Positions 30,621 through 39,259 of a stretch of DNA of 39,259 bases are shown here, piece by piece. The stretch is from the IMG/VR virus record IMGVR_UViG_3300043464_000397, positions 1 through 39,259 of that record. One strand, written 5' to 3'. Each line of letters begins with the position of its first letter. The first letter of the stretch is position 1. Source of the DNA: a virus. The notes under the pieces are model-generated. The model had not been told where the DNA came from, made no database searches, and saw nothing but the letters and a program-made list of their open reading frames with translations. The translations under genes were made by a program, and so were the position numbers.

Positions 30621-32507
30621 TTATCCGTATTGGTGATTCCACATTTCAGATGCGGCATCATCTAGATTAATTGATGTTCGTTTGTGTTGTTGCGCTCTAG
30701 TAGCCCAACGATTGTTGGCGTACCTAGCAATGTTGCTGTTTTGCTGCATAAACTCACGGGCACGGATAACCGCAAACCATAAAGCCATAACAGTATCTGT
30801 CTTACCTCTGGTGTCAGGCTTCCAAGTTATTAACTGTTGGACTAACGCCTTCATACCTTCTGAGTTTTCAGTACTAGGTAATTCTATAATGTTGTTCTTT
30901 TGGAACTTACCTTCGCGAGTAGTGCCAAAGAGTGTTGACATTGATGCCACACCGAAGTTTGTGTCCCATTTGTTTTTGCCTGTAAAGTGAGAATTAAGCC
31001 GTACGCCGTGTGAAGAGAGCCATGTTCGTAGTTCTTCGTCAAGGGAGTAGGCTTTTTGGTGGGCGTTGATTTCAACGCGGAACTCTTGCGGTCTGTACCG
31101 AAGCGTAAAATCTTCAATGGCTTGCCTAATCTTTTGTGGCGTAGGGTCTGGCATGTTCAAACACTCTAAAACATAAATCTTTCCATCGGTCCTGTTATAG
31201 GTTATAGCCACAAATGCAGCGTTACCCGCCATAGCGGGGTCAAAGCCTACAATAGTGTAACCCTCAACCTGAGGTGGATGTCCTGTAGCACCTGGCTTTA
31301 ATGGACCACGCTTTCGCATACCATTGATAGAACCTTGCACCAGTTCAGGTGGAAAGATAGAGTCTTCAGTTACATCTTCTTGTTGATAAACAAGCGCCCA
31401 TGTTGCTGGGGTTACTTCGCTTCTACGCTTAAAAAGCGTTTCGCCATCCCACTTAGGGTATAACCCTTCTTCATTAGGTGGGGTATCTTCATCCCCGTCC
31501 CAGGGTGTATCACTTGCAGGCCAAAGAGTTGTCCAGTCTTCTGGCTTATCGCTATAGTCAAGAACTGCTGGCATACCCATGTATGTAAAAGGTGACTTGC
31601 CACCAGACCAATGCTTAGGGTCGCGGAGTTCTTTATAAAAATCAGATGGCGCAATACGGGTGCCTACCACCAGTAACTTACCATTTTTGCCCAGACGGGT
31701 AATAACTTCCTTTTGCAGCCAGTTAATCTGCTTCTCATGCTCGTGAGCGTTAGAGGTAGTTATACAGTCATCTAGGATAATGAGGTCAGCACGTGCGCCG
31801 TAAATCTGACCACCCATACCCAGTGCCTGAATCGTTGGGTCTTTTTCACTTGAGTTTCTCGCATCACTCCCAAGGTAGACCGTGTCAACTCGCCAAGTAT
31901 CTGAGTCCTCTTTCCAGCCCCCTTCTGGTCCAAAAGTTGTTTGTAACTTTAGCCAGCGCGGGTGGGATAATCTCTGCTTGATTGCGTACACGAACTCGCG
32001 TGCTTTAACAAGGGTCTTCGAGACCACAATAATGCGGACGTTCGGATTGAGAGCGATGCGATAAGTTGCGTAGTTAACCGTAATCACGGTTGATTTGGCG
32101 TGCTCAGGGGGAACGTTTAGAAGTAGGCGGTTCCGATTGCCTGGCTCGTAAATCATATTGGGATGCAACCACGAAGGCTCGCGTCCCTCTAATAGGTCAA
32201 TCCAATCCATATGATGTGGAAAAACCCGCTGGTCCAAAAACATCTCAGAGAACTGAGGAAAGGTAATATCTTCACGGGCTACGCCCATGGCTTTTAATGA
32301 ACGCTCTTTAGCGTTTTCCTTTGCCTCGACAAGGGCGGTAGCAAAGGCTGGGTCTCTCAGGCACCAGATACGAACAGTGTCTGGCTTTTTGCCATTTTGT
32401 TCCATAGCCCTATGCACAGACATACCTTCAGAAACCAGCGCCAAAACTTTGGCTTTAGCCTCTGCCGCCATAGCGGTACGAGGGTTATTAGTCTTCTGAA
32501 AAGTCAC
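30621..32507 (-). CDS. terL: Large terminase subunit with N-terminal HTH
   Basis: The 628-residue protein has a packaging ATPase with a divergent Walker A, PPEHAKST (133-140), and Walker B LIILDD (242-247). A nuclease domain follows with Asp423 (VGFDPAMAG), Glu479 (RVEINAHQ) and Asp570 (KTDTVMALW). The first 70 residues are unusual: SEGMSVHRAMEQNGKKPDTV looks like a helix-turn-helix of small-terminase or transposase type. No separate small terminase gene is seen next to it. The start is GTG 32507, with only a weak GGGA site. It is the first gene of the leftward arm and powers DNA entry into the head. Confidence 0.92.
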   Translation of the reverse strand: MTFQKTNNPRTAMAAEAKAKVLALVSEGMSVHRAMEQNGKKPDTVRIWCLRDPAFATALVEAKENAKERSLKAMGVAREDITFPQFSEMFLDQRVFPHHMDWIDLLEGREPSWLHPNMIYEPGNRNRLLLNVPPEHAKSTVITVNYATYRIALNPNVRIIVVSKTLVKAREFVYAIKQRLSHPRWLKLQTTFGPEGGWKEDSDTWRVDTVYLGSDARNSSEKDPTIQALGMGGQIYGARADLIILDDCITTSNAHEHEKQINWLQKEVITRLGKNGKLLVVGTRIAPSDFYKELRDPKHWSGGKSPFTYMGMPAVLDYSDKPEDWTTLWPASDTPWDGDEDTPPNEEGLYPKWDGETLFKRRSEVTPATWALVYQQEDVTEDSIFPPELVQGSINGMRKRGPLKPGATGHPPQVEGYTIVGFDPAMAGNAAFVAITYNRTDGKIYVLECLNMPDPTPQKIRQAIEDFTLRYRPQEFRVEINAHQKAYSLDEELRTWLSSHGVRLNSHFTGKNKWDTNFGVASMSTLFGTTREGKFQKNNIIELPSTENSEGMKALVQQLITWKPDTRGKTDTVMALWFAVIRAREFMQQNSNIARYANNRWATRAQQHKRTSINLDDAASEMWNHQYG

Positions 32508-32592: not shown

Positions 32593-32674
32593 TTAGGTAG
32601 TAAAAGAAATAGTCTCTATATAGTATTAACCCGTTCAAACAGCCATTCCGAACGTTTCAAAGGCAAAAATCTTT

Positions 32675-32699: not shown

Positions 32700-32839
32700 C
32701 AGCCTAAACAGGGCATAGGGGACTGTACGGGAAAATCTTTATGGGAGATACTGTATATAAACTACAGCAGATTTAAACAGTCTAGGGTCAGAATTATCTG
32801 CCCCCAGTACTGACAGAACAGGTATCTATACTGTACAGG

Positions 32840-33199
32840 GTGATACTGGACTGTAGTCTATCCGCCTCGACCATGTCTCGCCCCAGTTCTGTTTATAATA
32901 TAACTGCCGATGGCTGGTTAATAAATGAAATCGTTGCAGCCCTGGCGATGGCTATGTCTTTAACCCTCACCGATGCGGAACGAAAACCAATGGTCGTAAT
33001 CTGTCCTATGCTTTGTGGTCAAGGACGACGCTCCCGCTATGTCGCCCTTGCCCCGCAAATCAAAGGCAGACCAGACGGCGATACAATTCCTGAGAATTGC
33101 TATCCCCGTCTTTTACTCATGACCCCTGTGATTTTATCTCCATCAGCAAAATGTAAAGCGGGCTGTGACCATGATTCCCGTCACACCCTGCGGGCATGA
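32840..33199 (+). CDS. Doubtful ORF (119 aa; or 108 aa from ATG 32873)
   Basis: An open frame fills much of the region between the arms. From ATG 32873 it reads MSRPSSVYNITADGWLINEI, with cysteines in ICPMLCGQGRR, PENCYPR and AKCKAGCDH that could form a zinc site. Against it, neither start has a spaced ribosome site (an AGGG touches GTG 32840). Its third-base usage is also richer in C than neighbouring rightward genes. It might be a transferred gene, or chance openness over an RNA or origin element. No family is recognised. Confidence 0.3.
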   Translation: MILDCSLSASTMSRPSSVYNITADGWLINEIVAALAMAMSLTLTDAERKPMVVICPMLCGQGRRSRYVALAPQIKGRPDGDTIPENCYPRLLLMTPVILSPSAKCKAGCDHDSRHTLRA

Positions 33200-33285
33200 C
33201 AGTAATCACAATCCCATCCTGTGCTTGTACATTTCAGTCGCGTTGTTCTACGGTTGCCTGGCTGATGTGCTGATGACGGCTCTCG

Positions 33286-33339
33286 ATTTTGAGCATCAGA
33301 GTCTTGTCAAGTCAAGCCTCTGATAAGCGCGCTCAAAAT
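33286..33339 (+). ncRNA. Long nested inverted repeat (possible structured RNA or origin)
   Basis: ATTTTGAGC (33286-33294) pairs with GCTCAAAAT (33331-33339). Immediately inside, ATCAGAG (33295-33301) pairs with CTCTGAT (33318-33324), leaving a 6-base bulge AAGCGC on one side. The loop contains CTTG/CAAG. Sixteen perfect pairs plus four in the loop are far from chance. It is not followed by a T run. RNA function is inferred; it could act as DNA. Confidence 0.5.
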
Positions 33340-33340
33340 A

Positions 33341-33367
33341 GGCTGGCAGGCTAAAGCCTGCGTAGCC
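33341..33367 (+). ncRNA. Adjacent stem-loop
   Basis: GCAGGC (33346-33351) pairs with GCCTGC (33356-33361) around a TAAA loop. GGCT (33341-33344) and AGCC (33364-33367) extend the stem. It begins one base after the larger inverted repeat, so the two probably belong to one element. Confidence 0.45.
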
Positions 33368-33377
33368 ATTGCTCGGC

Positions 33378-33406
33378 CTGAGATGTGTGGGCGTTGCCCT
33401 TAAAAT
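33378..33406 (+). promoter_or_regulatory. Putative promoter for the first rightward genes
   Basis: CTGAGA (33378-33383, 4 of 6 to TTGACA) and TAAAAT (33401-33406, 5 of 6 to TATAAT) are 17 bases apart. Transcription would begin near 33413, 23 bases before ATG 33436, leaving the two stem-loops upstream of the start. Confidence 0.35.
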
Positions 33407-33435
33407 TTGGGGGTGGCTAACGAAAGGAAAGTACA

Positions 33436-33816
33436 ATGTCTGATGAACTGACTGTCTCCAACCCATGCTACCAGTGCATGATTCAGATGGAACTGTGCGT
33501 GGACTGCCAAGACCTACGCGAAACAAGGGCGACTATCTTCGCCCATGACCTGGTTGACGAAGGAAGCGATATCTACAGATACGCTCCAATGTACACCAGC
33601 CTAACCAAAATCGAACCCGAACCAAGTGGGCACGAGTGGGTAGGTGCAGTAACTCTAGACAATAAAGACCAAGAAAGACTCGAGTTTATGGAACCTGTCA
33701 CCAACCTATCCGATAGGTTCTTCGAGATGGAGTTAGAACTGACCCACCATGAGATGGTGTGCCAGTCATGCAGACTAGTCTGCAACAAGCACGCAGTATG
33801 TCCAAATTGTAACTAA
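33436..33816 (+). CDS. Early zinc-finger-like protein (126 aa)
   Basis: The product has an N-terminal Cys cluster, NPCYQCMIQMELCVDCQD (four Cys), and a C-terminal one, MVCQSCRLVCNKHAVCPNCN (five to six Cys plus His). The middle is acidic. Two separate zinc ribbons joined by about 75 residues are likely. Being first in the rightward arm, it may be a host-takeover protein acting on transcription or other host complexes; that is inferred from position only. AAAGGAAAGTACA precedes the ATG. Confidence 0.75.
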   Translation: MSDELTVSNPCYQCMIQMELCVDCQDLRETRATIFAHDLVDEGSDIYRYAPMYTSLTKIEPEPSGHEWVGAVTLDNKDQERLEFMEPVTNLSDRFFEMELELTHHEMVCQSCRLVCNKHAVCPNCN

Positions 33817-34256: not shown

Positions 34257-34321
34257 TTTCGCAGGCCCCGTAACATCAACGGTCGGTAATGAGTTCATCA
34301 TCTATCCAGAAAGGTAACAAA

Positions 34322-34780: not shown

Positions 34781-34887
34781 TGACAGGCCCATACGTACCA
34801 CCTCAATGCGATGCATGTGACCAGTACACAGAAAAATTCTGTGATGATTGCGGTTTATGCATGGAGTGCGGGGACTGCGATGAGTGA
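34780..34887 (+). CDS. Cys-rich micro-protein (35 aa)
   Basis: GGAGGAG lies just before ATG 34780, which overlaps the previous TAA (TAATG). Of 35 residues eight are Cys: QCDACD, FCDDCGLCMECGDCDE. Two interlaced zinc sites or an Fe-S site are possible. A shorter relative with the same ending pattern is coded at 35242-35316. The stop overlaps the next ATG. Confidence 0.65.
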   Translation: MTGPYVPPQCDACDQYTEKFCDDCGLCMECGDCDE

Positions 34888-35167
34888 CTTAAACCCTGAA
34901 CACTTAGATGTAATGACAACACTCAAGATAGTAAGGTTAGTTGCAGGGTACACGCTTGCAGATGTAGAACGCGTAAGCAATGGCGAGTTTACTGTCGCAG
35001 CATTAGGAAGTTATGAGCGTAACCATAGAAGTATAACAGTTAAAAGACTGTTAAAATTGTGTGAGGTATACGGAATATCAATTTATTCAGTTATCAGACA
35101 CAGTATGTATGGAGACCAGATGCATGTAATGAAAGGAAAAAAAGATGGGTTACGAACCACCGCTTGA
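34880..35167 (+). CDS. BldD-like helix-turn-helix regulator (95 aa)
   Basis: The start at ATG 34880 overlaps the previous stop by eight bases; longer in-frame starts run into the micro-protein gene. Residues 15-70 form an XRE-type HTH: MTTLKIVRLVAGYTLADVER, then GEFTVAALGSYERNHRSITV and KRLLKLCEVYGISIYSVI. The SYER..R.ITV.RL..L...YG order is that of the actinobacterial BldD DNA-binding domain. No second (c-di-GMP-binding) domain is present. It may bind BldD boxes of the host or regulate the phage arms. Confidence 0.8.
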   Translation: MSDLNPEHLDVMTTLKIVRLVAGYTLADVERVSNGEFTVAALGSYERNHRSITVKRLLKLCEVYGISIYSVIRHSMYGDQMHVMKGKKDGLRTTA

Positions 35168-38514: not shown

Positions 38515-39259
38515 ATGCCAACAGAAATAGTAAGAGATAGATACGGTAGACCAATGGTTGTACCGCCAAAGGGTGGCGCTCCAGTTGCATACACCCGCGC
38601 CACTACAATAGCCAACAGTCTTGATGATGCGTCAGCATTGACAGCATGGAAGATGAGGATGGCTGCAATAGGTTTAACAAGCAGACCAGACCTGCTACTA
38701 GCAATAGGTGTAGCAGCAGAAGATAACAAGTTAGTTAATGCATACATCGAAGAAGCAATGGATGCAGCAGGTGCAAGTAAGGCAGCAACAATAGGCACAG
38801 CCATACACGCACTAACAGAAAAGTTAGATTTAGGATTAGACTTAGGTCCAGTACCAGAACAATGGATGCCAGACATCAAAGCCTACGAACAGGCAACTAG
38901 TATATTAACTAACCTATTCATTGAACAGTTCACAGTTCTTGATAAGTTTAAGATTGCTGGCACACCAGATAGAGTTGTTGAGTATAAAGGTGAGCGATTC
39001 ATTGCTGACCTTAAGACAGGTCGCATCGACCATCCAAATAATATATCAATGCAGTTGGCTATCTATGCCAACGGCATGCCGTATATGGTGGACACGGCAA
39101 GCCGTGGCACATGGGGCGACATCAACAAAGATAAAGCAATTATAATTCATGCCCCAGCAGGGACAGGAACATGCAAACTAGTATGGGTTGACATCAAAGA
39201 AGGATGGAAAGGTGTACAGTTTGCAATGAAAGTAAGACAGTGGCGTGACCAGAAGGGTC
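38515..39259 (+). CDS. Cas4/RecB-type PD-(D/E)XK exonuclease, N-terminal part
   Basis: AAGGAGACAA precedes ATG 38515. The frame runs off the right end and continues at base 1, giving 260 residues in total. The RecB/Cas4 nuclease motifs are in order: GTAIHALTE with His98; IAGTPDRVV with Asp152; FIADLKTG with Asp165 and Lys167; and MQLAIYANG with Gln180 and Tyr184. There are no Fe-S cysteines as in true Cas4, so a lambda-exonuclease-like or RecB-like role in recombination and end processing is likely. The next gene, with a zinc ribbon, may be its partner. Confidence 0.9.
   Translation, partial: MPTEIVRDRYGRPMVVPPKGGAPVAYTRATTIANSLDDASALTAWKMRMAAIGLTSRPDLLLAIGVAAEDNKLVNAYIEEAMDAAGASKAATIGTAIHALTEKLDLGLDLGPVPEQWMPDIKAYEQATSILTNLFIEQFTVLDKFKIAGTPDRVVEYKGERFIADLKTGRIDHPNNISMQLAIYANGMPYMVDTASRGTWGDINKDKAIIIHAPAGTGTCKLVWVDIKEGWKGVQFAMKVRQWRDQKG
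39133..39259. repeat. Direct terminal repeat, right copy
   Basis: Exact copy of 1-127. One copy must be removed to close the circle, giving 39,132 bp. Confidence 0.95.

Follow-up and report, generated by a model that had tools for sequence, protein, structure and literature searches.

An exchangeable, conserved structured RNA precedes the early genes of a phage with a probable actinobacterial host

Introduction

Bacteria and phages rarely encode noncoding RNAs that exceed 400 nt and keep a conserved fold, and some of the known examples have no assigned function; GOLLD, one of the large structured RNAs, owes its name to a lake source. Phages use RNAs made from their own genomes in several ways. 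The nut/N systems of lambdoid phages rely on RNA signals in the early leader, which related phages exchange as modules, while the put RNAs of HK022 suppress termination in cis via the zinc-binding domain of the RNA polymerase β′ subunit. The antisense immunity RNAs C4 of P1, P7, and P22 and CI of P4 are leader RNAs of phages that differ from one relative to the next and govern an operon, and the packaging RNA of phi29 is a structured RNA encoded by the phage genome. Among potential phage hosts, 'Ca. Planktophila' is one of the most abundant freshwater bacteria. The put RNAs are ~70 nt long, form two stem-loops, lie just downstream of or within the early leaders, and cause antitermination without a phage protein (PMC9378689). 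GOLLD, ROOL, and OLE are large structured noncoding RNAs, some of which occur in phages or prophages (PMC12286853 and, in part, general knowledge).

Here, we describe a structured RNA from a phage genome, IMG/VR record IMGVR_UViG_3300043464_000397; we refer to the whole stretch of DNA analyzed, all 39,259 bases of this record, as the window. Like HK022 put, it appears to be a phage early-leader RNA upstream of all early genes with an adjacent pair of stem-loops (PMC9378689). The position may be put-like: the RNA precedes the first early gene and has a conserved promoter-like element upstream. However, putL and putR belong to a lambdoid phage of Enterobacteria and have a demonstrated antitermination function, whereas our RNA comes from a putative actinophage and is known by comparing sequences; moreover, ~70 nt make up a whole put RNA, while here the two stems are embedded in a ~440-nt multi-domain fold. 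We use put as an analogy and not as a family to which the RNA would belong. The differences from the other systems are larger. In comparison with nut/N, we recognized no N-like protein, the RNA is far larger, and boxA and boxB are not conserved. GOLLD, ROOL, and OLE occupy other positions, whereas the RNA described here heads the early operon and has no Rfam match. C4 and CI are short antisense RNAs, whereas our RNA has neither an Rfam match nor above-chance complementarity to its own genome. Finally, like the phi29 packaging RNA, it is a structured RNA from a phage genome, in this case encoded beside packaging genes, but it and the terminase gene lie on opposite strands, and it has no Rfam match.

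Results

The record carries an identical 127-base direct repeat at its two ends (1-127 and 39133-39259) and therefore probably represents a complete, circularly assembled genome. The late arm runs on the minus strand from the large terminase, and the early genes run on the plus strand from 33436 past the end of the record to about 5900; the 928-base gap that separates the two arms holds the RNA (Table 1). The product of the first early gene matched no known protein family. Farther along the early arm, 34811-35167 encodes a protein with a helix-turn-helix domain (HTH_3) that is a possible repressor. Based on terminase and capsid, the closest named phages are the Planktophila phages LanE43-AprE7 and AprF5 (TerL, 62%; capsid, 79%), followed by Streptomyces phages, and the phage fits the E7/F5 group of 'Ca. 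Nanopelagicales' phages by its related terminase and capsid. A scan of selected open reading frames (ORFs) detected, among others, the mycobacteriophage gp49 and DUF4192 domains, which we take to point toward an actinobacterial host; no WhiB match, a whiB-like gene being a trait of the E7/F5 group, was found among the ORFs scanned. Altogether, the nearest isolates and these domains suggest that the host is a freshwater actinobacterium.

Table 1. Positions of the structured RNA, its parts, and flanking features in the window
Feature	Position	Strand	Remarks
Large terminase (TerL)	30621-32507	−	Heads the late arm
Putative early promoter, (C/T)TGTAC-N18-GATACT	32723-32752	+	Retained in relatives with each leader type
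Alternative −10-like TATAAT	32896-32901	+	5′ of the cassette; in some relatives only
Common 5′ handle, GCCYTGGCRATG-like	32937-32953	+	Left exchange border; common to leader types A-E, close relatives
Type-A structured RNA cassette, entire	32954-33421	+	Borders from cassette exchange
Domain I	32992-33124	+	Closing helix, long arm, hairpin
Domain I closing helix	32992-32997/33119-33124	+	
Domain I long arm	33000-33070	+	25 pairs, eight changed on both sides
Domain I hairpin	33073-33111	+	16 pairs
Long-range helix	33135-33385	+	33135-33140 with 33380-33385; 2 covarying pairs
Domain II	33149-33255	+	Arm interrupted by internal loops, 33149-33234; hairpin, 33236-33255
Stem 1	33286-33339	+	Inner part 33299-33320 covaries
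Stem 2	33341-33367	+	Pairing kept in 99.1% of cells; C-G replaced by G-C in L164/L165
3′ terminal hairpin	33395-33415	+	Directly 5′ of the ribosome binding site
Right exchange border, with the first early gene's ribosome binding site (GAAAGGAAAGTACA)	33422-33435	+	
First early gene	33436-33816	+	126 aa, cysteine-rich

A first-pass annotation of the window had placed two adjacent stems at 33286-33339 and 33341-33367, and both are present as claimed; stem 1 bulges on one side near 33325-33330, and the single base 33340 lies between the stems. Alone, the tandem stems fold at −40.1 kcal/mol. For the plus strand of the 236-nt interval around them, predicted folding beat 200 of 200 dinucleotide shuffles (z = −2.75), while folding of the minus strand was less clear (z = −1.47; 13 of 200). 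The covariation check on relatives that the annotation had proposed succeeded: over 21 sequences, both partners had changed in three of the stem pairs, for a total of 10 cells, compared with a shuffled mean of 1.8 cells and with none of 500 shuffles reaching 10. Both the inner portion of stem 1 and stem 2 covary. In the nine outer pairs of stem 1, by contrast, both-side changes were absent, and 3 of the 21 sequences break two of these pairs. The hairpins are real but make up just the 3′ portion of something larger; the stems were correctly located, whereas the element is longer than the interval originally delimited (33200-33435) and spans 32954-33421. The annotation saw no credible gene in this stretch, and indeed no frame stays open in all relatives; two ORFs of 119 and 52 aa that overlap the RNA region were rejected as coding because they are not kept in relatives, where every frame carries stops.

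The larger feature, which we refer to as the type-A RNA, is ~440-470 nt long with a high-confidence fold from 32992 to 33415. Homologues were gathered by pattern scans of viral contigs and from relatives of the first early gene, giving an alignment of 21 distinct phage sequences that covers window positions 32984-33421 with a mean column identity of 91%. The structure tested comprises 126 pairs, namely, the RNAalifold consensus minus poorly supported pairs and with both of the previously noted stems inserted, and it is kept in 97.4% of cells. Both-side changes affected 17 pairs in 73 cells, while shuffles averaged 9.6 pairs and 20.4 cells and 0 of 500 had as many, with the reservation that the shuffles ignore phylogeny and part of the changes are common to clades. 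When the partners were slid, 0 to 2 covarying pairs were left compared with the 17 observed; because the structure is partly derived from the alignment tested, it is favored over the slid versions, but not with respect to both-side changes. G-U cells (157) outnumber A-C cells (26), arguing that the folded transcript is the plus strand. The complementary strand is about as stable in a single-sequence fold of the window, and the strand call therefore rests on this asymmetry. The folding z score of the element was −4.0, and those of two relatives were −5.5 and −8.8, against a genome background with a mean of −1.9, in which 2 of 13 random segments reached about −4.

In addition, the type-A RNA has many invariant unpaired bases and is 84-93% identical while identity of the flanking genes drops to 73-76%; it keeps 84-92% identity in the phages with such divergent neighboring genes, suggesting either exchange between lineages or very strong constraint. 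It was seen in viral contigs only, always at the same locus and immediately 5′ of the ribosome binding site of an early gene, and has no second copy in the window. Within the fold, the long-range helix encloses domains II and III, including the tandem stems. The strong covariation, together with the lack of a relevant Rfam match, bears out the earlier description of a structured element, possibly an RNA, of no known family, and by this comparative evidence the region is a conserved structured RNA rather than a chance hairpin.

Searches for known families covered the window and the loci of relatives. At the gathering score, Rfam gave no match in the whole window; up to E = 5, the locus gave a single irrelevant match, a weak one to CRISPR-DR5 (E = 3.7) that stays below the threshold of that family and lies on the opposite strand, 5′ of the element, and the loci of relatives gave none at relaxed E values. 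We accordingly rejected a CRISPR repeat-like anti-CRISPR RNA, for which this sub-threshold match outside the element was the only indication, as well as membership in GOLLD, ROOL, OLE, or HEARO, for which there was no covariance-model match at the gathering score or, on the loci, at relaxed scores. ARAGORN found no tRNA or tmRNA in the window. A scan with one exact pattern found no copies of the RNA in bacterial genomes, and no relatives of the terminase were found there. Complementarity of the RNA to the phage's own genome did not exceed that in shuffled controls, and a role as antisense to the phage's own genes was dropped. In the open literature, we found no description of this RNA or of similar structured phage RNAs, although one may exist elsewhere.

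The only promoter-like sequence common to nearly all relatives sits 200 bases upstream of the RNA, at 32723-32752. Of 23 selected relatives, among which all cassette types are represented, 22 retain it (in the exception, L131, the search string gave no match), including distant phages with a terminase N terminus that is just 55-60% identical. The element fits the sigma-70 consensus poorly; we infer from its conservation that it acts as a promoter. The first-pass annotation had placed the structured element upstream of the likely early promoter and concluded that it is not simply a leader. Neither statement was upheld: the downstream promoter candidate (33378-33406) is at chance level (2 sites found versus 2.2 expected), overlaps the 3′ hairpin of the RNA, and is absent in sister phages with other cassettes, while both upstream candidates (32723-32752 and 32896) precede the RNA. 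Because the near-universal promoter-like element lies upstream, the RNA is probably the leader of the early transcript. Palindromes are conserved upstream in relatives at positions corresponding to window 32610-32660 (CCGTTCAAA-N-CCATTCCGAACGG) and 32770-32815 (AACAGTCTGGGGTCA-N-GACCC-CAG-ACTGTT; degenerate in the window), and may be operator-like or form a first leader hairpin. A boxA-like sequence, TGTCTTTAAC at 32956-32966, was dropped because it is not conserved in relatives.

In a comparison with the relative L100, identity is 96.8% as far as position 32953 of the window, no match follows until 33422, and identity from there on is 88%; L082 has the same right border. These breaks coincide with the RNA's own ends, arguing that the element is an exchange cassette. 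The leaders of relatives cluster into several types. Among 24 phages, i.e., the window and 23 relatives with a TerL at least 95% identical to that of the window and with the first early gene in hand, we distinguished five leader cassettes: A in 6 phages (5 relatives and the window), B in 3, C in 8, D in 1, and E in 6. All five types are structured. C, D, and E together form a second RNA family (24 sequences) with 11 covarying pairs and 39 G-U versus 4 A-C cells, and Rfam gave no match in those of their loci that were scanned. Leaders of this family in L100, L106, L107, L172, L175, L176, and L178 have arm insertions of variable length; the L178 record, at 79,356 bases, is about twice 39.7 kb and perhaps represents a single phage assembled as a concatemer. 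Covariance models built from three type-A domains had matches in type A only and none in the other types, and they did not find the tandem-stem arrangement in other cassettes; their minus-strand matches are mirror images of hairpins.

The RNA and the gene that follows it are uncoupled in both directions. In L099 and L134, the type-A RNA precedes an inserted, different small gene ahead of the usual first early gene, and in sister phages the same first early gene follows unrelated RNAs. This argues against a regulator of one gene, and the indifference to the next gene favors one of two options, an action on the early transcript as a whole or an RNA that works in trans. Judged by these comparisons, the locus is modular, with a swappable functional RNA part and unrelated structured RNAs in one slot. 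The inserted ORF in L099 and L134 encodes a cysteine-containing protein of 54 aa (MKCIVCDIDNLDNCDC...).

Discussion

Comparison of relatives demonstrates the fold, the strand, and the borders of the RNA, its swapping between phages, and its indifference to the following gene. With regard to function, we tentatively suggest that the plus-strand RNA (~440-470 nt) is an exchangeable 5′ leader of the early transcript with a mainly cis-acting role in antitermination or anti-pausing. According to this model, transcription from the promoter-like element at 32723-32752 would yield the RNA as the early 5′ leader; the nascent RNA would act mainly in cis on the transcribing machinery; and, by antitermination or anti-pausing, the host polymerase would read through the long early operon. 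The interchangeable early-leader position together with the tandem stems recalls lambdoid antitermination modules and especially HK022 put. The size of the RNA, more than six times that of put with conservation along its full length, and its unrelated replacements fit put less well, and our confidence in an antiterminator leader is limited for this reason. No sequence or model match joins the RNA to any antiterminator, and replacement by unrelated RNAs is not obviously favored under protein-free antitermination, which counts against the proposal, as do the restriction of the tandem stems to type A and the comparable single-sequence folding of the complementary strand. If the RNAs act on the polymerase, they would extend protein-free antitermination to actinobacteria.

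The main rival, which we place next in likelihood behind the antiterminator leader and also consider possible, is a trans-acting RNA that is cut from the early transcript, stable on its own, and binds a host protein or defense component, with the turnover of cassettes reflecting an arms race against diverse host strains. Unrelated cassettes swap in nearly identical phages, as is usual for counter-defense loci, and the large RNA with its many invariant unpaired bases resembles RNAs that act as stable particles; the indifference to the downstream gene also fits. The high microdiversity of the host order and the high gene flux of the nearest isolates (PMC10202952) point in the same direction. However, no terminator or processing site was identified and the RNA abuts the ribosome binding site; it has no long complementarity to the phage genome; the searches run found no copy away from the locus; and there is no known defense target. 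A trans-acting function would add a new RNA weapon to phage-host conflict. In a stronger version, which we regard as doubtful, the locus would be a hypervariable RNA-only locus at which freshwater actinophages swap entire unrelated large RNAs in front of the early operon as trans-acting counter-defense or host-takeover factors, an arrangement that would be almost unprecedented.

Less probable than the antiterminator leader or the trans-acting RNA is a cis-acting leader that controls the translation or stability of the early mRNA, by governing ribosome access, by shielding against nucleases, or as a riboswitch-like sensor. The 3′ hairpin stops 6 bases short of the right border and the ribosome binding site, and all cassette types are structured, both as expected for such a leader. 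However, the uncoupling of the RNA and the first gene both ways makes gene-specific control unlikely, and ~440 nt of conserved sequence would be needless for simple shielding.

A DNA-level element, i.e., a replication origin, packaging site, or recombination hotspot in which RNA-like folding is incidental, is largely refuted and in our view very improbable. The element sits between the divergent arms and adjoins the terminase gene, and the first-pass annotation considered both an origin and a packaging-related site. Cumulative skew reaches its minimum at 34280, roughly 1 kb from the element; however, this turn lies near the switch in gene direction, which speaks against an origin. The asymmetry between G-U and A-C cells shows selection on RNA. 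A packaging-related site is unlikely, since terminases that are 95-100% identical accompany unrelated sequences here; a phi29-type packaging RNA, which would be expected to be a conserved partner of the packaging ATPase, was rejected on the same grounds. Chance hairpins or remnants of mobile elements or decayed genes, to which the strong folding of some background segments and the two overlapping ORFs might point, are refuted by the covariation over 21 sequences, the stops in all frames in relatives, and the single copy in the window, with all copies found sharing one locus.

In otherwise near-identical phages, a single slot is contested by two or more large RNA families that are unrelated to each other, making their function testable by cassette swaps. 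In addition, related phages have been cultured on 'Ca. Planktophila', which brings transcript mapping within reach: the isolation host of E7 and F5 is strain LanE-43, and the microdiversity of the host order and the gene flux of these nearest isolates are both high (PMC10202952). The two isolates (F5, L169; E7, L170) have in common a ~165-base noncoding, foldable stretch between the terminase and the first early gene; it has no sequence match to type A and may be the culturable counterpart of the RNA cassette.
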